A stretch of DNA of 38,314 nt from the NCBI GenBank assembly GCA_028824715.1, contig JAPPCV010000170.1, forward strand, positions 1 through 38,314. Direction: 5' to 3'. Below the pieces are notes generated by a model. The model did not search any database. It had not been told where the DNA came from and was given only the letters and a program-made list of their open reading frames with translations. The stretch is from Boseongicola sp. GTDB lineage: Bacteria; Pseudomonadota; Alphaproteobacteria; Rhodobacterales; Rhodobacteraceae. The position numbers and the translations under genes are program-made. Below, in pieces: positions 6,090 to 23,545 of the stretch (position 1 is its first letter; each line of letters starts with the position of its first letter).

Positions 6090-6106
6090 GATCACGGGAC
6101 GCGCCG

Positions 6107-6142: not shown

Positions 6143-6225
6143 CCGACCGTGACCAAGCCACGCCAGATTCCCGAGAAACCGAACGTGGTGCAGGTCCCGT
6201 CCCGGCAGCGGCGTCGTGCCCGGCA

Positions 6226-7152
6226 CTACCCGACGGCATCGAGCCGCCGTTCCTGTCGCGAGATCAGTCGATCGACCTCCTCTCTTGCCTCCGCGGCAAG
6301 GCCGCGGCCCGGGCGGCGGATCGTCGGCGTCGCTATCACGCCCCGCTTGGCGAGCACGTGCTTCCGCACCGCGAGCCCGACCCCGGGCTGCTGTTCGTAC
6401 CGAACCAGCGGCAGATAGGCGTCGAAGACGTCCTGGGCCCGGGCCAAGTCGCCCTGTGCCACAAGCGTCGTCACCGCCACCATCATCTCGGGATAGCCGA
6501 AGCCGGTCATCGCGCCGTCGGCACCGCGCGCCAGTTCCTCGGGCAGGAAGATGCCGCCATTGCCGCACAAGATGGAAATCCGGCGCTGCCCGCGACCCTC
6601 CGCTGCCCGGATTGCCGTGATTTTCGCCAGGCCCGGCCAGTCTTCGTGCTTGAGCATCACCAGTTCGGGTATTTCCGCAACGATCCGGCCGATGACCTCT
6701 GGCGCGAAATGGACGTTTGTGGCCAGCGGGAAGTCTTGCAACACGATCGGCACCCCGTCGCCCAGAACCCGCGCGACATCGCGATAGTATCCGACGATCT
6801 GGCTGTCCGTCTTGAGCGTTCCAGGCGGCGCGACCATGATTCCTGCGGCGCCCAGATCCATCGAGGCCCTTCCGAGCTCGCCGATGGCTGCCAATCCAGG
6901 CGCCGAGCACCCCACGATCACGGGCCTGTCCCCGGCACGGGCAATCGCGCGTGCCGCAACCTCATGGGACTCGGCCAGCGTGAGCTTGGGCGCCTCGCCC
7001 ATCATCCCCAGGATGGTGATCCCGTCCGCGCCCTTGTCGAAATAGAAGTCGATTGCGCGGTCGAGGCTCTCGAAGTCAATCGCACCGTCATCGGCGAAGG
7101 GCGTCGCCGAAATTACAAAGACGCCCTTGGCGTCGGATTCAAGCAGTGGCAT
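6226..7152 (-). CDS. DapA/N-acetylneuraminate-lyase family aldolase, variant active site
   Basis: A 308-residue class I aldolase-fold protein of the dihydrodipicolinate synthase superfamily. The N-terminal GVFVISATPF and the phosphate/carboxylate-loop region GMMGEAPKLTL match the family, and the Schiff-base lysine is present at about residue 168 in VMLKHEDWPG. The catalytic Tyr that normally follows PxxL (LYNVP in DapA) is replaced: PIVLQDFP has Gln there, so it is unlikely to be a genuine lysine-biosynthesis DapA. It is the last gene of the eight-gene minus-strand run, 23 bases after the upstream M24 gene, with GGAG about ten bases before the ATG. A retro-aldol or dehydratase step on a keto-acid intermediate of the pathway is a reasonable inference; the substrate is unknown. 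Confidence 0.85.
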   Translation of the reverse strand: MPLLESDAKGVFVISATPFADDGAIDFESLDRAIDFYFDKGADGITILGMMGEAPKLTLAESHEVAARAIARAGDRPVIVGCSAPGLAAIGELGRASMDLGAAGIMVAPPGTLKTDSQIVGYYRDVARVLGDGVPIVLQDFPLATNVHFAPEVIGRIVAEIPELVMLKHEDWPGLAKITAIRAAEGRGQRRISILCGNGGIFLPEELARGADGAMTGFGYPEMMVAVTTLVAQGDLARAQDVFDAYLPLVRYEQQPGVGLAVRKHVLAKRGVIATPTIRRPGRGLAAEAREEVDRLISRQERRLDAVG

Positions 7153-7175
7153 CGCGGTTCGTCTCCAGTTCGCTC

Positions 7176-8387
7176 TTAACGCAGGAACAATTCGGTGGGC
7201 AGGTTGCTGAACAGCTCTACCGGGCCGCCCTCGCGGATCGCGAATGTCTGGCCAATCCCCGCCATGACGCCAGTTCGCGTATCCGGAATCATTATGTGCA
7301 CGAAAAACACCATGCCAGGTTCCATGACCAACGGATTTCCGGTGTAGATCATCGGCGGCACGTCCATCCAGGTGGGCCTGAAGGTGCAGCCCAACGCGTA
7401 GCCGCAGGCAGCAAAGCGTTCAGTGGCGAATCCGGCCGCGTCCAGCACCTTGCGGTGAATGTCGTCCAGCGTGCCAAGCGACGCACCGGGACGGGCGGAG
7501 TCCCTGATCTGGTCAAGCGCATCTGCCGCCACGGCCATCATTCCGGATTGCCGCGGATCAGGTCTGCCTACGGCCAAGGTGGATTCGACGCAGACGTGAT
7601 AACGGCAAAAGGATGCGGCCAGTTCGATCAAGACCTGATCGCTTTCGTCGATCCGTCGCGGCCCGCTGATGCCGCGCCCGAAGAGCGCGCGCGGTCCCGT
7701 GTTGACCAGCGGCCCTCCCGATGGAACGTCGCCTCCTCGCAGCATCGCGGCGAGCGCCGCCGCGCTCAGCTCGCTTTCCGTGACGCCCGGACTGGCGGCC
7801 TCGACCGCTGCGAGAACCGCGGCGTCGGCCAGACGTCCGGCCTCGCGCATCAGGGCAAGCTCGGCCTCGGACTTGACCAGCCGTTGCCGCCGCACGATGT
7901 CAGACGCATCCTCCAGGCTGCAGAACCCGTCCAGCGCGACCTCGATCAACCTGCCATTGGCGGCCGTCAGTCCGTAGGTCGCAAGCTCGACGCCGACACG
8001 TGCGCCGCGCAAGCCAAGCTCTTGCAGGATCGCCCGCAAGTCCTCCGCCGGGTTGACCTTCTCGGCATTGAACCAGATGCGAATTTCGTCGTAGAGCGAC
8101 GCGGTTTCGGCTTGTCGCAGATCCGGGCGCCGGGTCAGCAGGACAGTGGGCCGCTCGTCGGCGGTGATCACGCCGGCCTGGAAGAACACGTAGCCGGACG
8201 AGTCGTAGCCTGTGAGGTAGTAGTGGCTCTCCTGCGCGAAGACGAGCAGCGCATCGAGTCCCCTGCAGTTCAGTTCCGCACGCGTGGCCGCCAGGCGGGC
8301 GGCATGCTCTTCCTGAGAAAAGCGCAGCGACACGGCACGGCCGCCTGCGGTGGTCGCCTCGATTTCCCGAAAGGCCACGCCGGTCAC
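7176..8387 (-). CDS. Creatinase/ectoine-hydrolase-like M24 protein, metal ligands lost (copy 1)
   Basis: A 403-residue pita-bread-fold protein with a creatinase N-terminal domain (GLDALLVFAQESHYYLTGYD) and an M24 C-terminal domain. Aminopeptidase P and prolidase bind two metals through Asp, Asp, His, Glu, Glu. Here the first two sites read LIELAASFCRYHVCVE, the His position is GYALGCTF, one Glu survives in MEPGMVFF, and the last is Gln (GQTFAI). This is the pattern of the metal-free C-N hydrolases creatinase and ectoine hydrolase DoeA, so hydrolysis of a cyclic or guanidino-type C-N bond is likelier than peptide cleavage. The His that creatinase uses as base is not obvious either. The start is GTG 8387, overlapping the upstream M20 stop as GTGA. 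It is a close paralog of the gene at 14632-15810. Confidence 0.85.
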   Translation of the reverse strand: MTGVAFREIEATTAGGRAVSLRFSQEEHAARLAATRAELNCRGLDALLVFAQESHYYLTGYDSSGYVFFQAGVITADERPTVLLTRRPDLRQAETASLYDEIRIWFNAEKVNPAEDLRAILQELGLRGARVGVELATYGLTAANGRLIEVALDGFCSLEDASDIVRRQRLVKSEAELALMREAGRLADAAVLAAVEAASPGVTESELSAAALAAMLRGGDVPSGGPLVNTGPRALFGRGISGPRRIDESDQVLIELAASFCRYHVCVESTLAVGRPDPRQSGMMAVAADALDQIRDSARPGASLGTLDDIHRKVLDAAGFATERFAACGYALGCTFRPTWMDVPPMIYTGNPLVMEPGMVFFVHIMIPDTRTGVMAGIGQTFAIREGGPVELFSNLPTELFLR

Positions 8388-9604
8388 TGCAACTCGCAGA
8401 TGTCACACATGGTGATCAGGTAGATGCGCACCATGTCGAGGTAGTCGGGGATGTCGACCCGTTCGTCCGGCATGGTGTTGTAGCGGCCGCCCGGTCCGCA
8501 GACGACGCCTTCCATGCCTCCATGTACAAAGAGGTGGCCGGCATCTGTCCCGTAGTATCCCGGTGGCGTGATCGCGCCCGTGGGCTGCGGTTCGCCCCGG
8601 ATCGCTTCGTAGGCGACGTTCAGCGCCGTCACGATCCGTGCGTCCCGTGCCACTTCGAATGCCGGCATGTGGGCGTTTCCGCTGGGAGATTCGATCCGGA
8701 TCTCCGCTTTCAGCCCCGGCCAGTCCCTTTCCAGCGTGTCCAGAACCGCGCGGAAGTCCCTCAGCGCGTTTTCCTGCGTCTGTCCGGGCCCGATCCGCCC
8801 TGATCCGGTCATCCGCACGAAATCCGCCACCTGCGGCGGCCGCCATTCCTCGAAGCCTTGGCCCAGTGCGCCGCGGATTGTTCCCACGTGCACCCGGTTG
8901 ATGCCGCGGTGCTCGTCGCTCGGCGCGTCGGAGAACGTCAATTCGGTCAGGCGCGGAACCAGGTCGCAGGCGGCGCGGATCGCGTCAACCGCCTCTTCCC
9001 GCTTGGACATGTGGCGGGTGATGCCGGTCAGCTCGATCGTGAACATGAACGCTTCAGCATGCATGGTCAGTGCCTGCAAGTCCGTGGGCTCGGAATTGAT
9101 GAAATAGTCCGCGCGCGTGCCCGCCTTCACGGCTGCGTAGGTCCCGACCCCGCCCTGCAACTCGCCAACGACGTAGGTGAGGATGACGTCGCCTTTCAGC
9201 CGCTTGCCGCCCTCCATCAGCGTGCGCACCGCACAGAGCGATGCGGCGTCGCCCGCCTTCATGTTCGACACGCCGATCCCGTAGATGAACCTGTCGTCGA
9301 CGAGCCCGCCCCACGGATCGACCGTCCAGCCCTCGCTTACGGGGTTGGTGTCGAGATGGCCGTTGAACAGGAGGCTCTTGCCGCCACCCGTGCCACGCCA
9401 GACGCCGATGGCATTGACACGGTCGTCCTCGACGGGCTGCAAATGGGCATCGAGCCCCATCTCGGACATGATCTCGACCATGCGCTCCGCCAGCGCGCGC
9501 TCGCCCTCCGTGCCGGAGTGGCTCTTGTACCGGACCATTTCGGAAAGCGTGCCGAGACAGGCCTGCTCGTCAATGGCGCGGGCAAGCGAAAGAGCGTCCG
9601 TCAT
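8384..9604 (-). CDS. M20 family hydrolase with altered metal-binding residues
   Basis: A 406-residue protein of the ArgE/DapE/M20 superfamily. The first His-Asp motif is intact (NGHLDTNP) and so is SEPTD, but the bridging Asp motif reads YGIGVSNMKAG with Asn, the Glu-Glu pair reads VGELQGGVGT with only one Glu, and the C-terminal His motif reads RYNTMPDE with Asn. By hand alignment three of the five usual metal ligands are therefore changed, which suggests one metal, altered metal chemistry or a non-hydrolytic role. ATG 9604 has GGAG eight bases upstream; the stop overlaps the following M24 gene. It lies between the importer ATPase and that M24 gene, so it probably acts on the imported compound. 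Confidence 0.83.
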   Translation of the reverse strand: MTDALSLARAIDEQACLGTLSEMVRYKSHSGTEGERALAERMVEIMSEMGLDAHLQPVEDDRVNAIGVWRGTGGGKSLLFNGHLDTNPVSEGWTVDPWGGLVDDRFIYGIGVSNMKAGDAASLCAVRTLMEGGKRLKGDVILTYVVGELQGGVGTYAAVKAGTRADYFINSEPTDLQALTMHAEAFMFTIELTGITRHMSKREEAVDAIRAACDLVPRLTELTFSDAPSDEHRGINRVHVGTIRGALGQGFEEWRPPQVADFVRMTGSGRIGPGQTQENALRDFRAVLDTLERDWPGLKAEIRIESPSGNAHMPAFEVARDARIVTALNVAYEAIRGEPQPTGAITPPGYYGTDAGHLFVHGGMEGVVCGPGGRYNTMPDERVDIPDYLDMVRIYLITMCDICELQ

Positions 9605-9619
9605 TGTTCGGTCTCCGTG

Positions 9620-11272
9620 TCAGGCGGCCTGGCTGGCGGGCGGCGGAACCGCCTTCAGCAAGGCACGCGTATAGGGGTTCCGGTCCGGCCCTTCGACGTC
9701 GTCTCGGTGGAACGCGTCCATCAGCTTGCCGTGCTGCATGACGCAGATCCGGTGTGCGAGCTGGCGGACGAGGTTCAGGTCATGGGTGATGAACAGGCAC
9801 GCAGTGCCGGTTTGCCGCTGCAGGCTCACCAGAAGTTCGGCGACGGAGGCCTGCACCGACACGTCCAGGGAGGCGGTGATCTCGTCGCAGATCACGAGTT
9901 CGGGCTCCGCGGCGAACGCCCGGGCGATCGCGACTCGCTGCTTTTCTCCGCCCGACAGCTGGTGCGGCAGCCGGTCGGCGAACTCTCGCGGCAGGCGCAC
10001 CTGTTCCAGGAGCTTCGCGATACGCTCCGCACGTTGTTCCCGCGGCACGATGTCGTAGAGCTTCAGGGGGCGCGAGAGGATTTCCCGCACGCGCTGCCGC
10101 GGATTGAGCGACGCATCGGGGTGCTGGAAGACGATCTGCACGGCGCGGCGGTAGGCGCGGTCGATCTCGGCCAGTCTTGCAAAGTCTCGGTCGCCGAAGC
10201 GAACGATGCCGTCGAAGTCCTGCAAGCCTGACAGGACCTTGCCCATGGTGGACTTGCCCGAGCCGGACTCTCCGACCAATCCGACAAGCTCCCCCTTTCG
10301 GACCTCGATGCTGACCTTCTGCGCGCCAAGGTGCGTGGGCTTGGGGGCCAGCAGCTGCCCGAGAAGCGACTGCCGGCCGTATTCGACGGTTACGCCTTTT
10401 GCAGACATCAGCGCGGGTGCCTCGGACGGCGGCTCCGAGACGCCCAGCCACTGCTTCGGATTGGGGACGGCGTCAAGCAGCGCCTTCGTGTAGTCGTTGC
10501 GGGGGGTCCGGAATACCTCGGCGCACGGACCGCTCTCGACGATCTCGCCGGAGTTGATGACCGAAACGACGTCGGCCACCCGGGACACGAGACCCAGATC
10601 ATGCGAGATGTAGAGCGCCGAAATCGACGTCTCGTCCTGCAATTGGTTGAACAGTTCCAGGATCTGCTGCGCCGTGATGATGTCGAGAGCCGTGGTCGGT
10701 TCATCGAAGACGATCAGTTCGGGGTTGCAGGCAAAGGCCGTGGCGATGACGACCCTTTGCTTCTCGCCGCCCGACGCCTCGTGCGGGTAGCGGCGCAGCA
10801 TGTCCCCGGGTTTCGCGATGCCGGTCCGGGCCAGCGCGGCCTCGCTTTCCTCCAGGGCTTCCTGCAACGTCAGGCCCCGATGGCGGATCAGGACTTCCGA
10901 GAGCTGCTCCCCCAGGCGCATCGCGGGGTTGAGCGAGGTGGAGGGGTCCTGAAAGACCATGCTGATCCGCCGCCCCCTGATTTCCAGGATTTGCGGATGC
11001 GTCCGGTTGCGAAGGTTTTCCCCCGACAGAAGCAGCCTCCCGTCGTTCTCGATCGCGTTTTCGGGAAGATATCGCAGGATCGCCCAGGCCAGCGAGGACT
11101 TTCCGGAACCCGACTCTCCAACGAGGCCGTGCGTTTGGCCGTGCGTCACGCGGAGGTCGATGTTCTTCAGGGCGTGGACCGGGACGGACGGCGTCGCGTA
11201 GCTGAGCGAATACCTGGAAACTTCCAGGACGGGCGTGTCCGCGCCGGCGCCCCGTGCGTTGCCGCCCGCCAC
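9620..11272 (-). CDS. Dpp/Opp-type ABC importer, fused double ATPase (DppDF-like)
   Basis: A roughly 550-residue fusion of the two ATPases that power a peptide/opine/nickel-type importer. The N-terminal half has Walker A GESGSGKSSLA, signature ASGGEKQRV and Walker B LIVFDEPTTALD; the C-terminal half has GESGSGKSTMG, LSGGEKQRV and LVICDEITASLD, where Ile replaces the usual Pro. Each half ends with the oligopeptide-transporter C-terminal extension (NDYTKALLDAVP and NPYTRALLKAVP). The frame is open into the upstream permease. GTG 11272 was preferred because it lies one base after the permease TGA and has GGAG about eight bases upstream. The alternative start at 11350 would overlap the permease by 77 bases. 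Confidence 0.9.
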   Translation of the reverse strand: MAGGNARGAGADTPVLEVSRYSLSYATPSVPVHALKNIDLRVTHGQTHGLVGESGSGKSSLAWAILRYLPENAIENDGRLLLSGENLRNRTHPQILEIRGRRISMVFQDPSTSLNPAMRLGEQLSEVLIRHRGLTLQEALEESEAALARTGIAKPGDMLRRYPHEASGGEKQRVVIATAFACNPELIVFDEPTTALDIITAQQILELFNQLQDETSISALYISHDLGLVSRVADVVSVINSGEIVESGPCAEVFRTPRNDYTKALLDAVPNPKQWLGVSEPPSEAPALMSAKGVTVEYGRQSLLGQLLAPKPTHLGAQKVSIEVRKGELVGLVGESGSGKSTMGKVLSGLQDFDGIVRFGDRDFARLAEIDRAYRRAVQIVFQHPDASLNPRQRVREILSRPLKLYDIVPREQRAERIAKLLEQVRLPREFADRLPHQLSGGEKQRVAIARAFAAEPELVICDEITASLDVSVQASVAELLVSLQRQTGTACLFITHDLNLVRQLAHRICVMQHGKLMDAFHRDDVEGPDRNPYTRALLKAVPPPASQAA

Positions 11273-11273
11273 C

Positions 11274-12092
11274 TCAGCGGCTCCGCCTTGGGTCGAGGCT
11301 GTCGCGCAGCGCATCACCGAAGAGGTTGAACCCCATGGCCGCCATGGCAATCGCGACGCCGGGCACGGCCACGGTCCAGGCGTTCCGGAACATGAACTGC
11401 CGCGCTTCGGCGACCATAAGGCCCCATTCCGTCGAGGGCGGCTGAGCGCCCAGCCCGAGAAAGCCCAGCGTGGCGCCGATCATGATCGCAAAGGCCACGC
11501 GGATGGTTGCCTCGACGATGATCGGCCCGACCGCATTGGGCAGGACCTCGCGCAGGACGATGTAGTGCGAGCGCTCGCCGCGCGCGACGGCGGCGAGCAC
11601 GTATTCCCTGGTCCGGATCGAAAGAACCGAACTGCGCGCGATCCGCGCCATTCCCGGGGTGAACGCGATGGCGACCGCCAGCATCGCCTGTCCCATGCCG
11701 CCGCCGAGAAAGGTGACGATGAGCAGCGTGAAGAGCAGTTCTGGCACGGCGAGCAACCCGTCCAGGATGCGCATGATGACGCTGTCGAGCCATCCGCCAG
11801 CGGTGCCCGCAATCACCCCGATCATGCTGCCCGCGCCCACGCCCAGCAGCGTGGCGCCAAGCCCGAAGTAGACAGTCGAAGGCGCGCCGTTCAACAGCCG
11901 GGACAGCAGATCGCGACCGAACTGGTCAGTGCCCAGCCAATGCGCTGCCGAAGGCCCCTGCAGGCGCGCGGCAGGGTGGAAGGCCTGTGGATCGTAGGGT
12001 GCCAGCAACGGCCCCAGGGTTGCCGCCCCCATGACGAGCAGCAGCAGGCCGAGCCCGGTCGTGCCGGTCGCCGTCCGGAACGCCTTAGGCAT
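11274..12092 (-). CDS. Dpp/Opp-type ABC importer permease (DppC family)
   Basis: A 272-residue inner-membrane permease. It has the DppC-type N-terminal region with one helix followed by the periplasmic HWLGTDQFGRDLLSRLLNG motif, then five more helices and the ATPase-docking loop REYVLAAVARGERSHYIVLR. The C-terminus DALRDSLDPRRSR matches the family ending. Its ATG overlaps the stop of the upstream permease by eight bases. Together with the DppB-like partner it forms the channel for the substrate of this cluster. Confidence 0.92.
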   Translation of the reverse strand: MPKAFRTATGTTGLGLLLLVMGAATLGPLLAPYDPQAFHPAARLQGPSAAHWLGTDQFGRDLLSRLLNGAPSTVYFGLGATLLGVGAGSMIGVIAGTAGGWLDSVIMRILDGLLAVPELLFTLLIVTFLGGGMGQAMLAVAIAFTPGMARIARSSVLSIRTREYVLAAVARGERSHYIVLREVLPNAVGPIIVEATIRVAFAIMIGATLGFLGLGAQPPSTEWGLMVAEARQFMFRNAWTVAVPGVAIAMAAMGFNLFGDALRDSLDPRRSR

Positions 12093-13035
12093 AGCGCACC
12101 CGCGGGTCGAGGATGGCGATCACGATGTCGGACAGGAGGTTTGACAGCGCATAAACCGTCGCGAGAACCAGGGTGATGGCCTGAATGACAGGAAGGTCCC
12201 GGTTCTCCAACGCGTAGATGAGGAGACGCCCGAGCCCGGGCCAGGCGAAGATCTCTTCAACCACGATGATTCCGCCCAGAAGATACCCGATGTCGAGCGA
12301 AATCACCGCCACGGCCGGGGCCAGCGAGTTTGGCAGCGCATGGCGGCGGATCACGCGGCGTTCGCGCAACCCCTTCAGCCGTGCCGCGCGGATGTAGTCG
12401 CTGGACAGGACCTCGGACATCTCCGACCGCACCTGGCGGGAGATGTGCGCTGTCAGTATCAGGCCGAGCGTGGCCGCCGGCAGGACCACGTGCGACGTGA
12501 AGCCTCCCAGGCTCTCGCCCGGGGAGACGAACCCGCCTGCCGGGAAGAGCCCCAGCGCCGGTCCCGCCAGGAAGATCAGAAGCAGCGTTGCGGTCACGAA
12601 TTCCGGCATTGACGCGCCGATGTAGGAGAAGACCCCGATGATGAGATCGGCCACGGTGCCGCGCTTGATGGCCGCCAGCACGCCCAGCGGGATTGCGATT
12701 ACCGTGACCGATACCAGTGCCGTCACGGCCAGCGAGGCGGAATTCCAGAACGCATCGCCAACCACGTCCGCCACCGGCAATGACAGGCGCAGCGACTGGC
12801 CCAGGTCGCCGCGCAAGATGCCGCCGATCCAGTCAAGATATTGAACGTACCATGGCCGGTCGAGGCCGAGCCTGCGCTCCATCGCAGCCACGGCCTCTTC
12901 CGTTCCGTACTCGCCCAGTATCATCACGGCCGCGTTTCCCGGCAGAATCATCGTGATCGCGAAGACCGCGAAAGTCACGACAAACAGGACCAGGATTACC
13001 GCCAGAAGACGCCGGACAAGGTAACCTAGTGTCAC
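12085..13035 (-). CDS. Dpp/Opp-type ABC importer permease (DppB family)
   Basis: A 316-residue inner-membrane permease starting LGYLVRRLLAVILVLFVVTF, the characteristic DppB N-terminus, with LGLDRPWYVQYLDWIGGIL in the first periplasmic loop and the docking loop SSDYIRAARLKGLRERRVIR. Translation starts at GTG 13035, four bases after the TGA of the binding-protein gene; no better ATG exists near the conserved N-terminus. It is one half of the importer channel. Confidence 0.92.
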   Translation of the reverse strand: MTLGYLVRRLLAVILVLFVVTFAVFAITMILPGNAAVMILGEYGTEEAVAAMERRLGLDRPWYVQYLDWIGGILRGDLGQSLRLSLPVADVVGDAFWNSASLAVTALVSVTVIAIPLGVLAAIKRGTVADLIIGVFSYIGASMPEFVTATLLLIFLAGPALGLFPAGGFVSPGESLGGFTSHVVLPAATLGLILTAHISRQVRSEMSEVLSSDYIRAARLKGLRERRVIRRHALPNSLAPAVAVISLDIGYLLGGIIVVEEIFAWPGLGRLLIYALENRDLPVIQAITLVLATVYALSNLLSDIVIAILDPRVRYA

Positions 13036-13039
13036 GCGG

Positions 13040-15810: not shown

Positions 15811-15852
15811 GTCTTGCGTCCGCTCCCCCTGTTCGCCGCCCGCGCCTTCCAA

Positions 15853-15884: not shown

Positions 15885-16019
15885 CCATGTGAATACCAGC
15901 GCGCATGAAGGATGCGGCAATTCTGTTCCGACCCCGCGCCATGTTCCGGCGGGTCACCGTGGTGCCGAGAAAGGAACTGTCTTGGAACGGATCCGTCCTG
16001 CCATAAAGGGGCTTGAGAT

Positions 16020-16733
16020 TTGAGCTCTCCACCAGATAAGTCCTTTCCGGATTGGACAGGCAGAAGGTCCAAAGAGTTGAACGTGCAAGACCAGAGGCTT
16101 GCGCCGAGGGCGTATCAGCAGATCCTTGACATGATATTGTCGGGCAAGACACGGCCCGGCGAGCAATTGAACGAACGTCAGCTGGCAGACATGCTCGGAA
16201 TGTCCCGCACCCCTGTGCGGGACGCCTTGTTGATGCTGGAGGCCGAGGGGCTGCTTGTCCGTCAGGGGCGGATGGGCGTCCAGATCAAGCAGATGCACAT
16301 CGACGAGTTTCTCGATGCGCTGGAGGTTCGCGCCCTGCTGGAGCCAGCGGTCTCACGCATGGCGGCGGGCAAGGTCGACCACGCGGCGCTCGATGAACTG
16401 GAGCGTTCGCTGCACGGCGCAATCGAAATGGCGGATGCAACCGGACGCGGCATGGACCGGTCCCAGACTCGCTGGATCGACGACACGCTGCACAACCTGA
16501 TCTCCGATTCTGCCGGCAACGCGCAACTGTCGGCCATCGTGCGCAACCTGCGCCGAAAGACCCAGATCTTCGACCTGAAGACCCTCCCGGAACGTGCGGT
16601 CGTGACCTGCCATGAACATCTGGACATCATCGCCGCACTTCGCCTTGGCGATGGCGAGAAGACTGCAGAGGCAATGGCACTGCACCTCGAACAGGTTCGG
16701 GCCAGCATCATAGCCCGGCTGAGCCGGCGATGA
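16020..16733 (+). CDS. GntR family transcriptional regulator, FCD subfamily
   Basis: A regulator of about 215-237 residues. The N-terminal winged helix includes ILSGKTRPGEQLNERQLADM and MSRTPVRDALLMLEAEGLL, the GntR signature; the C-terminal domain is all-helical FCD, with metal/effector-site candidates in HNLIS and HEHLDII. FCD regulators of catabolic operons usually bind an organic acid or pathway intermediate. The start is unclear: the frame opens at TTG 16020 (AAGGGG upstream), but TTG 16077 or GTG 16083 would give a more typical N-terminus just before LAPRAYQQILD. It is divergent from the importer operon across a palindromic operator and overlaps the next gene by ATGA, so it probably controls both directions and itself. 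Confidence 0.9.
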   Translation: MSSPPDKSFPDWTGRRSKELNVQDQRLAPRAYQQILDMILSGKTRPGEQLNERQLADMLGMSRTPVRDALLMLEAEGLLVRQGRMGVQIKQMHIDEFLDALEVRALLEPAVSRMAAGKVDHAALDELERSLHGAIEMADATGRGMDRSQTRWIDDTLHNLISDSAGNAQLSAIVRNLRRKTQIFDLKTLPERAVVTCHEHLDIIAALRLGDGEKTAEAMALHLEQVRASIIARLSRR

Positions 16734-18028
16734 ACGATCCTTCCCTGGCCCTCGAACGCACGGAAGTCAGGCCGGACATCGCCCTGGCCGAGCGGCTGTT
16801 CACCGAATTGCGCCATCAGACGTCGGACACGCGCGGGATAACCCGCATGTCCTATGGACCGGGCGAGGAGATCGCTCACGCCATTGTCCGCAGGGAAGCC
16901 GAGGCGCTGGGGCTCGGGACCGAGACCGACGCGGCCTGCAACCAGTACATGACCCTGCCGGGCCAGACAAATGCGCCGGGGATCGTCATCGGCTCGCATC
17001 TCGACTCCGTGCCAAAGGGCGGCAATTTCGACGGTGCCGCGGGCGTGCTGATGGGACTGTCGGTGATTTCAGGGCTGGTGGCCGCGGATCGGGTGCCGCC
17101 TTGGCCGATCACCGTGATGGCGATCCGTGCTGAAGAGAGCGCCTGGTTTTCGGCCTCCTACATCGGAAGCCGCGCGGCTTTCGGCCGGCTGACCGCGCAA
17201 GAGCTGGACACGGTGGTGCGGGCGGGCGACGGCGTGACCCTTCGGCAGGCAATCGCTACGGCGGGCGGGCATGTTGACGATGTCGCCTTGGGAGGCGGCC
17301 ACTTGGCTCCGGAAGACGTGGCGGTGTTCCTGGAGCCGCATATCGAACAGGGACCGGTTCTGGCGCTGAAGGACCTGCCGCTCGGGATCGCGACAAACAT
17401 CAGGGGCAGCCTGCGTTTCCGTCGTGCGGCCTGCCGTGGGGCCTATGCACATTCGGGAACGACGCCGCGCGATGTGCGCCGTGACGCGGTGCTTGCCGTT
17501 TCGCAACTGGTCACGGAGCTTGACCGGCTGTGGCGCCGGTTCCAGGCGCAAGCCAAGGACCTCACGGTCACTGTCGGCGAGATCGCGACGGACGCCGAAG
17601 AAGCCTCGTTCTCCAAGGTCGCGGGCCTTGTGCGTTTCTCCCTTGACGTTCGCAGCGATTCCGTCGCCTCGCTGGATGAATTCGCGATCGAGCTGAAGGC
17701 GATGGCAGCCGCCATCGAGAGTGACCGAAACGTCAGTTTCGATTTCGGCCCGCGCACGTCCACGACCCCGGCAAGAATGCACCCGGCGGTGATCGCCGGG
17801 CTGAGACAAGCCGCCGACGAGGCGCGGCAGCCTGTGCTGGACATGCCCTGCGGCGCGGGCCATGACGCCGCCACCTTTGCCGGTCTCAGTGTCCCCACCG
17901 GAATGCTGCTTCTTCGCAACGAGAACGGCAGCCATAACCCTCACGAGCACATGGACATCAGCGACTTCAGCGTCGGTGCGGAGGTGCTCATGCGATTCTG
18001 CCTGTCCCCGCCGGACATCCCGAAATGA
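16730..18028 (+). CDS. M20 amidohydrolase of the hydantoinase/carbamoylase type (HyuC/AmaB/allantoate amidohydrolase family)
   Basis: A 432-residue dinuclear metal hydrolase of the group that cleaves N-carbamoyl amino acids, allantoate or ureidopropionate. Motifs are complete: IGSHLDSVPKGGNFDGAAG with His and Asp, RAEESAWF with the Glu pair, EPHIEQGPVL with His, AHSGTTPRDVRRDA in the dimerisation domain, GAGHDAATF, and the final ENGSHNPHEHM His. Unlike the M20 protein at 8384 nothing catalytic is missing. It overlaps the GntR gene by ATGA and the dehydrogenase gene by four bases, so the three are translated together. Cleavage of a carbamoyl or amide intermediate of the imported compound is inferred; a general L-carbamoylase is equally possible. 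Confidence 0.88.
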   Translation: MNDPSLALERTEVRPDIALAERLFTELRHQTSDTRGITRMSYGPGEEIAHAIVRREAEALGLGTETDAACNQYMTLPGQTNAPGIVIGSHLDSVPKGGNFDGAAGVLMGLSVISGLVAADRVPPWPITVMAIRAEESAWFSASYIGSRAAFGRLTAQELDTVVRAGDGVTLRQAIATAGGHVDDVALGGGHLAPEDVAVFLEPHIEQGPVLALKDLPLGIATNIRGSLRFRRAACRGAYAHSGTTPRDVRRDAVLAVSQLVTELDRLWRRFQAQAKDLTVTVGEIATDAEEASFSKVAGLVRFSLDVRSDSVASLDEFAIELKAMAAAIESDRNVSFDFGPRTSTTPARMHPAVIAGLRQAADEARQPVLDMPCGAGHDAATFAGLSVPTGMLLLRNENGSHNPHEHMDISDFSVGAEVLMRFCLSPPDIPK

Positions 18029-18951
18029 CCGACTGCGTCATCGTGCAACCCATTGCCCGTTGCGGAGTGGAATTGCTGCAAGACTCCGGTCTGTCGGTCT
18101 TCGTGGCCCCTTCGCCGGAACTGGCGGTCCTCAAACCCCATCTGTTGACCGCCAGGGCGGTGATCACGCGCAACAGCGGGCTTTCCTCCGAAGCCATCAA
18201 GGCCGCTCCAAACCTGGCAATCATCGCAAGCCATGGCACGGGGACGGACCGCATCGACAAGGTTGCAGCCGAACGGCGCGGCATCAGGGTTGTCAGCACG
18301 CCCGGAACGAATGCGCAATCGGTTGCTGAACATGCGCTCGCGCTGATGTTTGCCTGTGCCCGACGAGTGCCTGCCGCCGATCATGCGGTGCGTGCCGGCG
18401 ACTGGTCATTCCGCGAATGCACCCGGCAGCGTGAGATGCACGGGTGCCGCCTCGGTCTCGTCGGCTACGGCCATGTGGCACGAAGGCTGGCGACACTTGC
18501 AAAGGGGTTGGGCATGACCGTGACCGTGCACTCGAAACATGCCAGCGACGCAGACCTCGCCGCCGACGGGGTTCTGCGCGCTTCGACTCTCGAGGACCTG
18601 CTTGCAACCGCGCAGGTCGTTTCGCTGCACGGGTTGCCCGGCCGCACGCGTGTCCTGGACGAGGCGCTGCTTTCGAAGCTGCGCGCGGACGCCATCCTGA
18701 TCAACACCGCCCGCGGTGTCCTGATCGACGAGGCAGCGCTGGCCGCGGCCCTGCGCGGGGGCCGCATCGCGGCGGCCGGGCTGGACGTCTTCTCCTGCGA
18801 GCCATTGCCTGGTGACAGCCCCATCCTGGATTGTCCCAACGTCGTTTTGACCCCTCACATCGGCGGCTCCGCCGTCGAGGCGCGCGAGCGGACGGCGCTC
18901 GAGGTGGCCCGCAGGGTCGTCGAGGCCATTGGGACGGGCTCTCCCGATTGA
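18025..18951 (+). CDS. D-isomer-specific 2-hydroxyacid dehydrogenase
   Basis: A 308-residue NAD(P)-dependent dehydrogenase of the SerA/GhrB superfamily, reducing a 2-keto acid or oxidising a D-2-hydroxy acid. It has the substrate-loop ASHGTGTDRID, dinucleotide motif LGLVGYGHVARRLA, and the catalytic triad Arg in NTARGVLIDEAAL, Glu in FSCEPLP and His in LTPHIGG. ATG 18025 overlaps the stop of the amidohydrolase gene. The length is that of a single-domain-pair enzyme without a regulatory ACT domain, arguing against a biosynthetic SerA. Its place between an amidohydrolase and 5-oxoprolinase genes suggests it handles a carbon skeleton released by the pathway. Confidence 0.88.
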   Translation: MTDCVIVQPIARCGVELLQDSGLSVFVAPSPELAVLKPHLLTARAVITRNSGLSSEAIKAAPNLAIIASHGTGTDRIDKVAAERRGIRVVSTPGTNAQSVAEHALALMFACARRVPAADHAVRAGDWSFRECTRQREMHGCRLGLVGYGHVARRLATLAKGLGMTVTVHSKHASDADLAADGVLRASTLEDLLATAQVVSLHGLPGRTRVLDEALLSKLRADAILINTARGVLIDEAALAAALRGGRIAAAGLDVFSCEPLPGDSPILDCPNVVLTPHIGGSAVEARERTALEVARRVVEAIGTGSPD

Positions 18952-18962
18952 GGAACCGCGGC

Positions 18963-19703
18963 ATGCAGGAAGATTGCGAGGTCAATGATCCAGTGATCCG
19001 TTACCTGGGCGACTCGGCCTTGTCCGTCGAGTTTGGCAACCGTATCGATGCCGAACTGGTGTCCCGTGTCCACGCGTTCGACGCTGCCTTGAATCAGCTT
19101 TGCCTCGCCGGCGTCGTAGAGACCGTCCCGACCTATCGGGCCACCACCGTCATTTTCGATCCTCTCACGGCTGACGTCCGCGAAATCGAAGCTGCCGTTC
19201 TGCGACTTGCATCCACCGAAAGTGACGCCGGCAGGCCGGTCGGGCAGCTCTGGGAGGTTCCCGTGACCTATGGCCAGGATTTCGGGATCGATCTCGATGA
19301 TGTGGCGGCGCATGCTGGCATGACGCCAAGCGACCTCGTAGAGGCACACGCCGATCCGGAGTACTTGGTCGCGATGGTCGGATTTCTTCCCGGATTCAGC
19401 TATCTTTCCGGGCTGGACCCGCGCCTTTCGACGCCGCGCCGATCCGAGCCGCGTGCTAGGATTCCTGCATCCTCAATTTCGATCGGCGGGCAGCAGACGG
19501 CCATCGGCAGCCTCGAAGGGCCCAGCGGATGGCACGTCATCGGCCGCACCCCGGCCCGCCCGTTCCACCCCGGCAGAATGCCCGAGTTTCTTTTCGAACC
19601 TGGAGATCGCATCAGGTTTCGGCCAGTTTCCGCGCGCGAATGGTCCGAACTCGACAGGGGCGCGACACGCGGAGCGCTGGTTGCGGAGAGAGTCGACGGA
19701 TGA
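18963..19703 (+). CDS. pxpB: 5-oxoprolinase subunit PxpB (KipI family)
   Basis: A 246-residue protein of the KipI/allophanate-hydrolase-C family, subunit B of the ATP-dependent 5-oxoprolinase PxpABC, which opens 5-oxoproline to glutamate. The N-terminal IRYLGDSALSVEFG and the central VAMVGFLPGFSYLSGLD with TPRRSEPRARIPASSISIGG are family hallmarks, as is GGQQTAIGSLEGPSGWHVIGRTP. Start ATG 18963 has GAGGA eight bases upstream; the longer frame back to 18831 lies inside the dehydrogenase gene. It overlaps pxpC by ATGA. PxpB and PxpC together are thought to phosphorylate 5-oxoproline. Confidence 0.92.
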   Translation: MQEDCEVNDPVIRYLGDSALSVEFGNRIDAELVSRVHAFDAALNQLCLAGVVETVPTYRATTVIFDPLTADVREIEAAVLRLASTESDAGRPVGQLWEVPVTYGQDFGIDLDDVAAHAGMTPSDLVEAHADPEYLVAMVGFLPGFSYLSGLDPRLSTPRRSEPRARIPASSISIGGQQTAIGSLEGPSGWHVIGRTPARPFHPGRMPEFLFEPGDRIRFRPVSAREWSELDRGATRGALVAERVDG

Positions 19704-20698
19704 CCGCGCTTGAAATTGTGCAATGTGGTCCGGGAGCGTCGGTTCAGGATGCAGGGCGCTACGGCTTTCGACGGTTCGGCGTGTCGACCGCGGGAGCGAT
19801 GGACCGGCGGGCATTGGCGCTGGCCAACACGCTTGCAGGCAACCAGCCGGATGCAGCGGCATTGGAACTGCCGCTTGCCGGCGCGGAGTTCCGCGTCGTC
19901 GGCGGGCCTGTCCTGCTGGCAGCCCACGGTCCCGGAACGACGCTGGCCGTCCCTGGCCGGCTCGTTTCGGAACGGTCATCGGTGCAGGTGGGCGACGGCG
20001 ACACGGTAATGATCGGCCCGCCGCGCGAAGGCGTGTACAGCTATGTTGCCGTCGCAGGGGGGATCCTGACAAGGCCCGTTCTCGGCAGCCGCTCCTGCCA
20101 TCGTCGCTCGGGGATCGGAGGGGATGTGCTGTCGCCGGGTGATCGGCTTCCTTGCATTGGCGGTTCCGACAATGCGCCTTTGCATTTCCCCGAGGGCATG
20201 ACGTACTGCGGCCGTGATGCAATCAGGATCGTTCCGGGCCCGCAGGCAGGCTTCTTCGAGGACGTGACATGGTCTCGGCTCCTGTCGTCGAGTTACCGGA
20301 TCAGTCCGCGGTCAGACCGGATGGGCCTGCGTCTTGAAGGCCCTGCTCTTCGGTCCTCAACGGGGCACGACATCGTGTCCGAGGGGGTGGTTCCTGGAAG
20401 CGTTCAGGTGCCCGGCGACGGAAACCCGATCGTCTTGGGCCGAGATTGCCAGACGACCGGGGGCTATCCGAAGATCGCAACGGTGATCTCGGCCGATCTG
20501 GACCGGCTGGCGCAGGTACAAGTAGGCCGAGACGTGCGCTTCCGCATTGTCTCGGAAGGAGACGCGATTGATGCTGCGCGCCGTTCGGCACATTGGCGCA
20601 GTTCGCTGAAGTCGTCGGCAGAACCTGTCAACGGCGCTTCGCCGGACCTGCTTTCGCAAAACCTGATCGGCGGGATTACCAGGGGCGACGACCTCTAG
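19700..20698 (+). CDS. pxpC: 5-oxoprolinase subunit PxpC (KipA family)
   Basis: A 332-residue partner of PxpB. The N-terminus TALEIVQCGPGASVQDAGR continues to YGFRRFGVSTAGAMDRRAL, the usual KipA opening, and further conserved blocks are VAVAGGILTRPVLGSRS, SDRMGLRLEG, SEGVVPGSVQVPGDGNPI and DCQTTGGYPKIATV. Start ATG 19700 overlaps the pxpB stop. Its TAG stop shares the tetranucleotide CTAG with the TAG stop of pxpA coming from the opposite strand, so the two genes meet tail to tail with no spacer. Confidence 0.92.
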   Translation: MTALEIVQCGPGASVQDAGRYGFRRFGVSTAGAMDRRALALANTLAGNQPDAAALELPLAGAEFRVVGGPVLLAAHGPGTTLAVPGRLVSERSSVQVGDGDTVMIGPPREGVYSYVAVAGGILTRPVLGSRSCHRRSGIGGDVLSPGDRLPCIGGSDNAPLHFPEGMTYCGRDAIRIVPGPQAGFFEDVTWSRLLSSSYRISPRSDRMGLRLEGPALRSSTGHDIVSEGVVPGSVQVPGDGNPIVLGRDCQTTGGYPKIATVISADLDRLAQVQVGRDVRFRIVSEGDAIDAARRSAHWRSSLKSSAEPVNGASPDLLSQNLIGGITRGDDL

Positions 20699-21459
20699 CG
20701 CGCTTTCGACGACGCGACGGTCCAGCCTTCCTTTTCGAGACCGTCACGCAGCGCTCTTGCCATGGCGACGGCCGCCTCGTTGTCCCCGTGCACGCACACT
20801 GAATCGATCTCGACCGGCAGGCGTTTGCCCGTCACCGATTCCAGCCGCCCCTCGGCCACCATTTCTTTCACGCGAGTCAGCGCGGTTTCAACATCGTGGA
20901 TGACGGCGCCGTTGACCTTGCGGCTTGTCAGGTTGAAGCTGTCGTCATAGGTCCTGTCGGCATAGACTTCGCGTATCGGACGCAAGCCTGCTCGATCGCA
21001 GGCGCGCTCTGTCGCCGTTCCCGGCATCACCATGAACGCAAGCCCTGGGTCGGCGGCCCGTATGCCGCGGGCAACGGCATCGGCAAGGCCGTCGTCGTCC
21101 GCACAGGCGTTTCCGAGTGCACCATGTGTCTTGACATGAGTTCCGGGATGCCCTGTCAGCGACGTCATCGCTTGAAAGGCGCCCACCTGATAGGCAACGA
21201 GCGTCTCGATCTCGTGCGCCGTGACTCCGGTTTGCGCACGCCGCCCGAATCCGATCAGGTCGCGGTAACCTGGGTGGGCCCCGACCGCGACCCGCCGTTT
21301 GCGAGCAAGGCCAATAGTGCGTCGAATCGTTTCGGGGTCGCCAGCATGAAACCCGCAAGCGATGTTGGCCGTTGTGACGATGTCCAGCATTGCCGCATCG
21401 TCACCCATCGTCCAAGGTCCGAACCCCTCTCCGAGATCGGAATTGAGATCGATCTGCAT
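20695..21459 (-). CDS. pxpA: 5-oxoprolinase subunit PxpA (LamB/YcsF family)
   Basis: A 254-residue metal-dependent hydrolase-fold subunit completing PxpABC. Signature blocks are DLNSDLGEGFGPWTMGDD, ANIACGFHAGDP, GAHPGYRDLIGFGRR, VKTHGALGNACADDDG and SVCVHGDN. In the YcsF proteins I recall, the sixth block position reads KPHGALYN, so Thr and Gly here are small deviations. It is transcribed opposite to pxpBC, ends in a shared CTAG with pxpC, and is divergent from the glutamine-amidotransferase-like gene across the second GGTATACC site. The start ATG 21459 is right at the conserved N-terminus with AAAGGA about 12 bases upstream. Confidence 0.93.
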   Translation of the reverse strand: MQIDLNSDLGEGFGPWTMGDDAAMLDIVTTANIACGFHAGDPETIRRTIGLARKRRVAVGAHPGYRDLIGFGRRAQTGVTAHEIETLVAYQVGAFQAMTSLTGHPGTHVKTHGALGNACADDDGLADAVARGIRAADPGLAFMVMPGTATERACDRAGLRPIREVYADRTYDDSFNLTSRKVNGAVIHDVETALTRVKEMVAEGRLESVTGKRLPVEIDSVCVHGDNEAAVAMARALRDGLEKEGWTVASSKAR

Positions 21460-21538
21460 TGATGTCCCAGTCCTTTCTTCTTGTTGTGGCGCGCCTCCGA
21501 CCAGTGTAGCCGAACTCGTTGCATGACGGCGCACCATT

Positions 21539-21546
21539 GGTATACC
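21539..21546 (+). promoter_or_regulatory. Second GGTATACC operator, overlapping a plausible -10 box
   Basis: The octamer GGTATACC repeats the core of the perfect palindrome upstream of the importer operon. It lies 27 bases before the ATG of the amidotransferase-like gene, inside the 113-base divergent gap with pxpA. On the plus strand TTGCAT (21519-21524), a 16-base spacer and TATACC (21541-21546) would place it over the -10 box. Flanks are less symmetric than at the first site. I found the octamer only at these two places by eye. Confidence 0.6.
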
Positions 21547-21572
21547 GGAAGTGCCGGGAAGAGGAGGTCTTC

Positions 21573-22292
21573 ATGTCGGGCGGTCATCTGCTCTATCTTG
21601 GCAACGGCCGGAAATTCGAATCCGTGGCAAAGTTGGATGACAGGTTTGAAGGCTGGGGGCTAACCGTCAGCCGCTGTTGGGCGTTCAATGGTGAGTTTCC
21701 GGACAGCCTGGACGGATTTGACGGGATCTTTGTGTCCGGCAGCCCCCACGGAGCCTATGAGGACATCCCGTTCATTCACCGGGAGCATGACCTGATCAAG
21801 GCTGCGGCGGAGCGGGAAATCCCGATGCTTGGCATCTGTTTCGGCAGCCAGATCCTGGCCTCTGCCCTTTGCGGGCGCGATCAAGTCTTCCGGCGTGAAT
21901 TCTGCGAGATAGGATACAAGGATCTTCCGGTAACGGAGGCTGCAAGGGACGACCCGGTTTCCGGCGCGTTGGGCAAGAGGGTGCACATGTTCGTCTGGCA
22001 CAACGACGAAGTGCGCGGCGACCACCCGGACATGACGGTCCTTGCAAGCTCCGACCTTTGTCCCAACCAGATCTGGCGCTGGCGAGATGCTCCTGTCTGG
22101 GGAATTCAGGGCCATCCCGAGATCACGCGGGAACAGGCCCCGATTTGGTTCGAAGAAAACCGGGACCGCATGGAAAAGGATGGTGCCAACGTGGATGTTC
22201 TCAAGGCTTCTGCAGATGAAGCCACGGAAGCCAAGACGATGCTGACACGGTTCGTCGATGTAGTGAAGGCGCGCACATGGCCCAGCCGCTGA
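21573..22292 (+). CDS. Class I glutamine amidotransferase-like hydrolase (GMP-synthase-like GATase1)
   Basis: A 239-residue stand-alone GATase1 domain. The nucleophile elbow GICFGSQILA carries the Cys and the distal motif GIQGHPEITREQ carries His and Glu, giving a full triad; GIFVSGSPHGAYED supplies the oxyanion region. Stand-alone members of this subgroup include plant gamma-glutamyl peptidases (GGP1 type) and amidotransferase partners. No synthetase domain is adjacent, so hydrolysis of a gamma-glutamyl amide fits the 5-oxoprolinase context (inference). It is not the PuuD type, whose motifs differ. ATG 21573 has GAGGAGG five bases upstream; a TTG at 21519 in frame was rejected. The end overlaps the next gene by 16 bases. 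Confidence 0.85.
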   Translation: MSGGHLLYLGNGRKFESVAKLDDRFEGWGLTVSRCWAFNGEFPDSLDGFDGIFVSGSPHGAYEDIPFIHREHDLIKAAAEREIPMLGICFGSQILASALCGRDQVFRREFCEIGYKDLPVTEAARDDPVSGALGKRVHMFVWHNDEVRGDHPDMTVLASSDLCPNQIWRWRDAPVWGIQGHPEITREQAPIWFEENRDRMEKDGANVDVLKASADEATEAKTMLTRFVDVVKARTWPSR

Positions 22293-23416
22293 TTTACGAG
22301 CCTTGGTTCGAGCTTTCCGAATATGAGGCGCGTCTGGCCCGTGTACAGGCGGAATTGAAGACGCACGGGCTTGACGGGCTGCTTGCCTTCCAGCCCGAGA
22401 CGGTGACTTGGTTGACTGGATTCTTTACGCGGGGATATGGCTCTCTTCAACTTGCTGTCATCCCGGTCGACGGCCAGCCGACATTGGTCTGCCGCGACGT
22501 CGAGGAGTACTACCTCGACGCAACCTCCGTGTTTCCGGGTCGGGCGATGTGGACGGACAGCGACACGCCCGTGGCCGTCGCCGCCAAGGCGATCCGGGCA
22601 AGCCTGGGCGCGACCGCCAAGGTCGGAGTTGAAACCGCCGCATGGCCCTTGTCGGTTGCACGTTACCAGCAACTGAACGACTGCCTTCCCGGTTATCGGT
22701 TCACGGACGCGAGCGGGCTCGTGGGCAAGATGCGTCTGAAGAAGTCGGCCGCAGAGATTGCCTTGCAAAGGCATGCGGGAAAGGCGGCCGAAGCGGGCAT
22801 GCAGGCCGCGATTGACAGCGCTGGCATCGGCGTCAGCGAGCGCGAAGTTGCGGCGGAGGTCTGTGCCGCCATGATTCGGGCGGGCAGCGACCTGCCGGGT
22901 CCGGGCGTGATGTCATCCGGGGAGCGGGCGTTTCACTTGCATGGCGGCTATTCCGATCGCGTTCTCCGGCGGGGCGATATTGTCCAGATCGAGACCACGC
23001 CAAACGTGCGCCACTATCACGCTCGTTTCATGCGCCCCATGCGCGTGGCAGAGGCCAGCGACAGGGACCACAAGATAGTCGAAAGCCTTGTCGCGATTCA
23101 GGACGCGGCGTTGGACGAAGTGCGCCCCGGCGTTCCGGCTGCCGTGCCGGACGCCATCTACCGGGACGGCGTGCTTTCCCAAGGGTTGCGCGAGACCTAT
23201 ACGAACAAGACGTTCTATTCGGTCGGCCTGCTTCTGCAACCCTCAGGAGGCGAGGCCCTGGAAGCAGCCCCGGGCTGTGACTGGCATTTCGAAACGGGCA
23301 TGACGTTTCACACCTACGTTCTTGCCTGCGGGTTCGGCATGTCGGAGACAATTGCCATAACCGACACCGGCTACGACCGCCTCACGCGTTTTGGGCGACA
23401 GCTCTTTACGGTCTAG
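22277..23416 (+). CDS. Ectoine-hydrolase (DoeA)-like M24 protein, metal ligands lost (copy 3)
   Basis: A 379-residue creatinase/M24 protein, more distant from the other two copies. The N-terminal domain has GLLAFQPETVTWLTGFFTRG and the C-terminal domain IQIET-type strand as IVQIETTPNVRHYHARFMR, where the two metal Asp residues are absent. The His site reads FYSVGLLL; Glu residues survive in FETGMTFHTY and MSETIAIT. A His is present in GERAFHLHGGYS, near where creatinase has its catalytic base, unlike copies 1 and 2. The pattern is closest to ectoine hydrolase DoeA, but no ectoine genes (doeB, doeC, doeD, ehu/uehABC) are recognisable nearby, so the symbol was not given. Translation is coupled to the amidotransferase-like gene by the overlap. 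Confidence 0.85.
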   Translation: MAQPLIYEPWFELSEYEARLARVQAELKTHGLDGLLAFQPETVTWLTGFFTRGYGSLQLAVIPVDGQPTLVCRDVEEYYLDATSVFPGRAMWTDSDTPVAVAAKAIRASLGATAKVGVETAAWPLSVARYQQLNDCLPGYRFTDASGLVGKMRLKKSAAEIALQRHAGKAAEAGMQAAIDSAGIGVSEREVAAEVCAAMIRAGSDLPGPGVMSSGERAFHLHGGYSDRVLRRGDIVQIETTPNVRHYHARFMRPMRVAEASDRDHKIVESLVAIQDAALDEVRPGVPAAVPDAIYRDGVLSQGLRETYTNKTFYSVGLLLQPSGGEALEAAPGCDWHFETGMTFHTYVLACGFGMSETIAITDTGYDRLTRFGRQLFTV

Positions 23417-23545
23417 TGTCTTGTCACGGAGCGGCGTTGCCGGCTTGGTTCATGCTTCGCAAGCGCCGGGCTTGGCGCAGGTGCCCGCCGTTCTGTCTCG
23501 CGCTTGGGGACGTGAACGTTCAGCTGACCTGTGCATGGCAATGAC

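Follow-up and report, generated by a model that had tools for sequence, protein, structure and literature searches.

Positions 6226-23416 of the window, by which we mean the whole 38,314-nucleotide stretch of contig JAPPCV010000170.1 (Boseongicola sp., assembly GCA_028824715.1), hold a block of genes for a Dpp/Opp-type importer, hydrolases of the M24 and M20 folds, the subunits of 5-oxoprolinase and a GntR/FCD regulator. The block very likely forms an island that imports a small nitrogen compound and degrades it to glutamate. Pfam and NCBIfam profile scans recover every gene listed in an earlier note on this DNA, and the features are as follows.

6226-7152, minus strand: dapA, DapA-family (PF00701) Schiff-base lyase (Pfam 4.8e-31)
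7176-8387, minus strand: M24a, M24 protein of the creatinase/ectoine-hydrolase-like type, lacking the canonical metal ligands (Pfam; ligand columns E C Y H G)
8384-9604, minus strand: M20a, ArgE/DapE-type M20 protein whose changed metal site is like that of 5-nitroanthranilate aminohydrolase (Pfam; motif alignment)
9620-about 11314, minus strand: abcDF, fused DppD/DppF ATPase of the importer (two ABC_tran stretches; start ATG 11314 or GTG 11272)
11274-12092, minus strand: abcC, importer permease C (BPD_transp_1, OppC_N)
12085-13035, minus strand: abcB, importer permease B (BPD_transp_1)
13040-14575, minus strand: sbp, family-5 substrate-binding protein (SBP_bac_5 1e-89)
14632-15810, minus strand: M24b, another M24 protein of the creatinase/ectoine-hydrolase-like type, sharing 50% identity with M24a (Pfam; ligand columns E K Y H G; closest solved structure DoeA, 6twk, 1.9e-27)
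15866-15877, no strand: operator ATGGTATACCAT in the M24b/gntR gap (motif conserved across loci)
16077-16733, plus strand: gntR, GntR/FCD regulator (Pfam GntR 3.2e-19, FCD 1.1e-18; start TTG 16077 or 16020)
16730-18028, plus strand: M20b, hydantoinase/carbamoylase-family amidohydrolase with M20 ligand motifs intact (TIGR01879 244.8 bits)
18025-18951, plus strand: hadh, D-isomer-specific 2-hydroxyacid dehydrogenase (Pfam 2e-49)
about 18963-19703, plus strand: pxpB (TIGR00370 160.8 bits; 39% to Escherichia coli PxpB)
19700-20698, plus strand: pxpC (TIGR00724 266 bits; 39% to E. coli PxpC)
20695-21459, minus strand: pxpA (NF003814 338.6 bits; 42% to E. coli PxpA)
21537-21548, no strand: operator TTGGTATACCGG in the pxpA/gat1 gap (motif conserved across loci)
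21573-22292, plus strand: gat1, stand-alone class-I glutamine amidotransferase (GATase) hydrolase with a Cys and a His-Pro-Glu motif (PF00117 64 bits)
22277-23416, plus strand: M24c, third M24 protein, of a separate clade common to Pot-linked loci (Pfam; ligand columns E R Y Y S)

Three transcription directions are apparent: dapA-M24a-M20a-abcDF-abcC-abcB-sbp-M24b runs leftward, gntR-M20b-hadh-pxpB-pxpC rightward, and pxpA leftward, divergent from the rightward gat1-M24c pair. The importer has the family-5 binding protein, two permeases and two ATPase domains of a Dpp/Opp system. The window genome (G000) amounts to 5.24 Mb in 181 contigs, and the closest named matches of M24b are two Silicimonas sp. 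metagenome-assembled genomes (MAGs), at 96%.

The earlier note had reported one regulator and two matching operators, and both operators withstand comparison: ATGGTATACCAT (15866) and TTGGTATACCGG (21537) occupy the two divergent gaps and match TGGTATACC. Of the 25 gntR-bearing loci, 24 have a TGGTATACCA site with no more than one mismatch in the 400 bases upstream of gntR (20 of them exact), and the remaining locus, from Allosediminivita (L068), has an upstream site with two mismatches; shuffled upstream stretches attain these scores in 0-3 of 200 shuffles. G021, L055 and L066, which gave no gntR match, have no such site outside the mapped genes. The operator precedes gat1 in 15 of 23 gat1-bearing loci (L030 representing G003 and L176 representing G047), the other eight having at least two mismatches. 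Conservation in both divergent gaps shows common control of the two halves of the block; judging by its family, the GntR/FCD protein would bind the two TGGTATACC palindromes and repress the three transcription blocks until an inducer is present. A wider regulon was considered as a clue to the substrate and dropped, the other two exact sites of the window genome being uninformative: one lies at a different GntR gene and one inside an unrelated open reading frame (ORF) that by eye resembles MORN repeats. The genome-wide motif scan gave no convincing further target, and one-mismatch sites elsewhere in the genome carry no meaning because the reversed control pattern outnumbers the real one (98 against 35).

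Conservation was followed by mapping the window proteins on fetched loci, which gave 28 genomes with an M24b of at least 70% identity. The set comprises the window, five genomes of its own genus (G001-G005), the genomes G021, G047, G645 and G650, and loci with names from Terrarubrum, Rhizobium sp. SSA_523, Rhizobium wenxiniae (two strains), Neorhizobium huautlense, Alsobacter, Arboricoccus, Bosea, Cohaesibacter, Acidisphaera, Shinella and Gemmobacter, plus six more MAGs or strains. Same-genome duplicates (L051/L028, L052/L029, L175/L068, L176/L032, L030/L029) were counted once, and G007, whose contig ends inside the importer, stands outside the set. The gene families do co-occur, and the two halves of the block are joined, so that the absence of any such linkage, one of the outcomes that the earlier note set against its idea, is not what is seen: gntR adjoins M24b in 25/28 genomes, M20b lies in the fetched stretch in 25/28, pxpB or pxpC in 21/28 (from several alphaproteobacterial orders; in a 22nd, Allosediminivita, they lie just past it), and gat1 and M24c are both on the same stretch in 20/28. 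The lower counts are minimum values, since contig ends cut several loci (among them L053, L056, L058, L062, L067 and L069); the counts are not frequencies over all genomes, since the genomes were gathered via M24b. M24b itself is rare, being found in one of 385 class genomes at E <= 1e-120 (the window's own) and in 6 of 295 family genomes at E <= 1e-150. M24c occurs in 8 of the 295 at E <= 1e-110, including all six with M24b (hypergeometric 3e-11); G003 and G047 carry their M24c piece on a separate contig. Gene set and operators are thus conserved beyond chance.

A script run over 95 further ORFs, many of them probably not genes, gave no accessory family recurring in at least three of 22 loci (some from the same genome); by eye, RidA-like ORFs are present in L059, L060 and L032 and an SDR-like ORF in L059 and L060. 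Frameshift-like two-piece matches occur for M24c, M20b and M24b in Shinella UYSO24 (L067, 5743-11145) and for M20a in Allosediminivita (L068, 10228-11447), and would reflect either sequencing error or decay.

PxpABC opens 5-oxoproline to glutamate, and the subunits encoded here are 39-42% identical to those of E. coli. PxpA and PxpB pass their models (NF003814, 338.6 bits over a cut-off of 226; TIGR00370, 160.8 over 145.6), and the third subunit passes the PxpC-type domain model (TIGR00724, 266 over 230) without reaching the PxpC equivalog NF045499 (220.8 bits against a cut-off of 500). The complete 5-oxoprolinase of the earlier note is therefore upheld for the three encoded subunits and for the identity of two of them. 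The genome has three PxpA loci, and only in the window is PxpA accompanied by adjacent E. coli-like PxpB and PxpC. The locus on contig C110 gave no pxpB or pxpC match in the 16 kb fetched, unlinked copies not having been searched for, and that on C69 has more distant subunits (25-35% to E. coli PxpABC). The C69 genes (L166, 3736-7951) form a second pxpA-pxpB-pxpC-like set with a 465-aa ORF between pxpA and pxpB.

The binding proteins may point in the same direction. The closest solved structure to the window binding protein is AgaA [6hlx, 7.9e-51; the next is at 1.6e-44], which we take to bind agropinic acid, the lactam of an opine built on glutamate and similar to pyroglutamate. In G650 the pxp genes stand beside a TRAP importer, and the best solved match of its receptor is 2pfz (2.4e-36), followed by 6wgm (1.1e-34) and 2pfy (1.7e-33), with the next solved structure at 5e-22; 2pfz and 2pfy, labelled putative exported proteins in the structure table, are presumably Bordetella pertussis receptors that bind pyroglutamate. 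The two importers, though they belong to different superfamilies, would thus point to the same kind of moiety, which is suggestive.

The G650 arrangement is one of several in which parts of the block are exchanged. Its first place unites importer, M24a, M20a, M24b, gntR, gat1 and M24c; the second, on a different contig [L190 (G650:C41:40000-59900), 1213-14312], which holds its M20b, hadh and pxp genes, has SDR-dapA-class IV aminotransferase-pxpA beside DctP-DctM-pxpB-pxpC-gntR-hadh-M20b-gntR-M24, with a one-mismatch site between pxpA and the TRAP receptor gene. G626 has no M24b beside its importer, the rest of the set still being linked, and M20a was not found anywhere in that genome at E <= 1e-50. 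In G031, G367 (a 6.5-kb contig) and Roseomonas p546-2, gat1 and M24c are accompanied by a Pot-type ABC importer with no Dpp importer beside them, the partner gene being dapA in G031 and G367 and an RraA-type aldolase in Roseomonas; G031 has a one-mismatch site upstream of gntR. The block is therefore a composite of modules found apart elsewhere with other importers, and the idea of a self-contained pathway is not supported in the form the earlier note gave it.

More distant relatives of M24c (46-50%) occur in five plasmid records, four of which were read: Rhizobium binae p5, Phyllobacterium zundukense, Sinorhizobium meliloti pHRC017 and Paraburkholderia phenoliruptrix (L178 4137-16731, L179 4137-16897, L180 4136-12255 and L181 5756-11718). 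Beside the M24c relative are Pot-type ABC genes, an Asp/Glu racemase (4/4) and a D-2-hydroxyacid dehydrogenase (3/4); in 3/4 a gene annotated as a C26-type gamma-glutamyl hydrolase, its C26 domain verified in one, lies near that relative, in the place that gat1 has elsewhere. The gene set of these legume-symbiont plasmids, not all present in each, comprises GntR, Pot-type ABC, M24, D-2-hydroxyacid dehydrogenase, C26-type hydrolase, class III aminotransferase, SSADH and Asp/Glu racemase, and the S. meliloti locus has an unexplained biotin-carboxylase-like gene about 4 kb off. No gamma-glutamyl ligase is annotated in the four plasmid stretches, whose gene table is incomplete, or found among the block genes, so a gamma-glutamyl group, if one is cut, should arrive with the imported compound. 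An importer of this Dpp/Opp type is also present on plasmids of Agrobacterium vitis (L024, 10861-20469) and Roseomonas (L022, 14991-23340), together with M20a, another M20 protein and GntR; M24a, M24b and pxp genes are absent from both stretches, and A. vitis has a 33% M24c-like gene. These are perhaps a related island for another substrate.

The M24 ligand columns were read off an alignment with prolidase 1pv9, the canonical metal-ligand positions being taken by us to be D, D, H, E and E. None of the three M24 proteins keeps this set, which marks the Xaa-Pro metallopeptidases: M24a has E, C or V, Y, H, G in 10/10 rows, M24b E, K, Y, H, G in 14/14, and M24c E, R, Y, Y, S in 11/11 and also in the Pot-linked relatives. 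EutD proteins share the E and Y replacements (four rows; L184 and L188 set aside). In the M24 tree, from which the long branch pot_Avitis_M24 was removed, M24b forms one clade (100/100), as does M24c with its Pot-linked relatives (98/100), both apart from EutD; M24a, grouped together in an earlier flawed tree, is not resolved as one clade. A more distant M24 relative (41-47%; L070-L129) is widespread, largely in Pelagibacteraceae single-cell genomes, with no importer island in the stretches fetched, and the one row of this group that was aligned (L072) likewise lacks the canonical ligands.

M20a, aligned with 7uoi and 5k8m, departs from the dinuclear M20 ligand set (H, bridging D, E-E, D/E, H): it keeps the first H-x-D, one Glu and the SEP motif, and has Asn for the bridging Asp, Leu for the second Glu (GEL for E-E) and Thr for the final His, the motifs SNMKAG, GELQGG and NTMPDE being invariant in 11 sequences. 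M20b keeps the M20 ligand motifs and is a member of the hydantoinase/carbamoylase family (TIGR01879, cut-off 204), closest among solved structures to N-carbamoyl-L-amino acid hydrolase 3n5f and distinct from ErtE, the N-carbamyl-L-glutamate amidohydrolase (NF058540, 268.4 bits against 520). The term metal-free in the earlier note fits the three M24 proteins at the five canonical positions; M20a has lost just part of its dinuclear site, and for M20b the term does not fit. In gat1 the CFG and GHPE motifs of the Cys-His-Glu triad are invariant in 18 rows; among solved structures it is related to glutamine amidotransferases and GMP synthases, led by 9xfs (6.8e-14), with gamma-glutamyl peptidase 1 (GGP1; 9k7i, 4.5e-12) fifth of 22. 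The dapA product scores 93.7 bits against the TIGR00674 DapA cut-off of 206; it is closest to 3dz1 (4.5e-101), followed by L-2-keto-3-deoxyarabonate dehydratase (4.8e-26), and by family would be a 2-oxo acid aldolase or a dehydratase/deaminase.

From these sequence comparisons we favour, with a probability of roughly 0.55, the view that the island is inducible and breaks down a compound of the pyroglutamyl or gamma-glutamyl type, the last step being the conversion of 5-oxoproline to glutamate. Import, carbamoylase-type amide hydrolysis, 2-hydroxyacid oxidation and Schiff-base lyase chemistry are general functions of the families present, and the order of the steps and the identity of the substrate we infer as follows. 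The importer would bring in a small, probably opine- or dipeptide-like compound with a pyroglutamyl (lactam) or gamma-glutamyl group. M24a and M24b, with M20a, may cleave the first C-N bonds in the manner of the EutD ring opener, and M20b, as an ordinary carbamoylase-type amidohydrolase, and the glutaminase-like gat1 product may take off amide or gamma-glutamyl groups. M24c and gat1 are placed at a later intermediate because they are separately linked with a Pot-type importer elsewhere; other bacteria would import that intermediate directly. The hadh product could oxidise, and the dapA-type lyase cleave, a 2-hydroxy/2-oxo acid side piece, and PxpABC would open 5-oxoproline to release glutamate, the most secure of these steps. 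A gamma-glutamyl group would be supported by GGP1 among the solved relatives of gat1 and by the C26 hydrolases of the plasmid loci. More tentatively, and with rather less than even confidence, we propose an undescribed route, common to alphaproteobacteria of the sea and to those associated with plants or soil, by which a natural pyroglutamyl or gamma-glutamyl lactam compound would be degraded and in which M24 and M20 folds without their usual metal sites would perform successive C-N hydrolyses before 5-oxoprolinase yields glutamate. The 5-oxoproline or gamma-glutamyl end foreseen by the earlier note is thus backed by the E. coli-like PxpBC at one PxpA locus, the TRAP sister island and the C26 hydrolases, the substrate itself staying conjectural; its interpretation is partly supported and its observation of the gene block confirmed.

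Several points weigh against the favoured reading. The AgaA match is remote, though the best of 49, 6wgm scores between 2pfz and 2pfy for the TRAP receptor, and the ligands of AgaA, 2pfz and 2pfy are presumed ones. The second operator is seen at just 15 of the 23 gat1 loci, and gathering the 28 genomes via M24b under-represents loci that lack it. Neither pxpB nor pxpC adjoins the cluster in five cases, namely L065, where a pxpA-like gene is present, L066, L067, G047 and G650, pxpC being on another contig in the last two, and hadh is likewise missing from the cluster in L063 and L065-L067; that part is therefore not required at this place. GMP-synthase glutaminases outrank GGP1 among the relatives of gat1, and for M20b an N-carbamoyl substrate would be a better fit than a gamma-glutamyl one. 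The modules found apart with Pot-type and TRAP importers, and the separate contig of the pxp module in G650, would also suit a multi-compound scavenging island in which the Dpp, gat1-M24c-dapA and pxp-hadh-M20b modules degrade different related amides and share only a regulator. We think this unlikely, as the operators are common to both halves, the same set recurs in distant genera, and M24b is accompanied by M24c in all six of its genomes in the family sample.

A substrate of the N-carbamoyl, hydantoin or guanidino kind, handled by creatinase/carbamoylase chemistry with PxpABC serving only a by-product or an analogous lactam, would account for the family membership of M20b, the creatinase among the solved relatives of M24c, the PxpC score under its equivalog cut-off, and the allophanate hydrolase and AtzE genes that adjoin the Terrarubrum cluster. 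The profile scans, however, find no hydantoinase, ureohydrolase or urease among the block genes, the recurrence script gave no further family in three or more of the 22 loci, and the likeness of the TRAP receptor to 2pfz speaks against such a substrate, which makes this quite improbable. An ectoine-type pathway with divergent EutD proteins is highly improbable and can be regarded as largely refuted: ectoine-hydrolase models are the best NCBIfam matches of all three M24 proteins, and the E and Y replacements are shared, but the scores against TIGR02993 (124.9 bits for M24a; 113.2 and 109.4 for the other two) are far from the cut-off of 613, contig C142 of the same genome encodes a far better EutD candidate (576 bits, itself under the cut-off), and no eutE, eutB or eutC is among the genes called in the block. 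ADPC (cyclic glutamine) was ranked low as a substrate, being described as synthetic in PMC5924519.

The flanks possibly hold neighbouring nitrogen-catabolic genes. Positions 24-6057 carry part of an OYE-type oxidoreductase, an M20 and a PotABCD importer, and positions 24297-29068 a nitrilase, a LuxR and a class III aminotransferase, both recurring in the same-genus contigs that reach there; an acyl-CoA dehydrogenase comes next on the right.

What the block represents is an orphan catabolic regulon whose gene set recurs and whose operator is mapped, and relatives of it are available as deposited strains, among them Rhizobium wenxiniae DSM 100734 and Cohaesibacter marisflavi CGMCC 1.9157. Were its substrate a lactam or gamma-glutamyl compound, it would reveal a nitrogen pool common to sea and soil and give functions to creatinase-like M24 proteins now named peptidases. 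In agreement with the earlier note, the literature searches, in which subscription journals were thinly covered, returned no paper describing this gene set. The closest described regulon found is pxpTABC of Corynebacterium glutamicum, which, from the portion of PMC13274462 available, combines 5-oxoprolinase genes with the secondary transporter PxpT, the GntR-type regulator PxpR and a 17-bp operator. It resembles the block in having 5-oxoprolinase genes, an importer and a GntR-type regulator, whereas PxpT and the 17-bp operator differ from their counterparts here, and that portion names no M24, M20, GATase, DapA or 2-hydroxyacid dehydrogenase genes for the operon.

The EutD/DoeA pathway likewise pairs an importer with a ring-opening-type M24 protein lacking the canonical metal ligands, followed by a second hydrolase; the block differs in its low EutD scores and in having pxpABC, M20 enzymes and a GntR/FCD regulator instead of eutE, eutB and eutC. 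With agropinic acid and opine uptake it has in common a binding protein to which AgaA is the closest solved structure and a catabolic island with a Dpp-type importer, which some relatives carry on a plasmid, whereas no opine oxidase or sugar enzyme is among its genes and the sources of its relatives include sea water and soil. M20a is like 5-nitroanthranilate aminohydrolase (5k8m) in its M20 fold, the Asn at the bridging-Asp position, the altered GE motif and the lack of the C-terminal metal His, although the two are remote over the whole chain (E 1.4e-15). The symbiotic-plasmid loci, for which no description of function was found in the literature, share an M24c relative and mostly GntR, 2-hydroxyacid dehydrogenase and C26 hydrolase, and differ in their Pot-type importer, with no Dpp importer, and in the aminotransferase, SSADH and Asp/Glu racemase of some or all of them. 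A GntR-controlled island of importer and hydrolases is familiar in kind, and this combination is, as far as we have seen, new.

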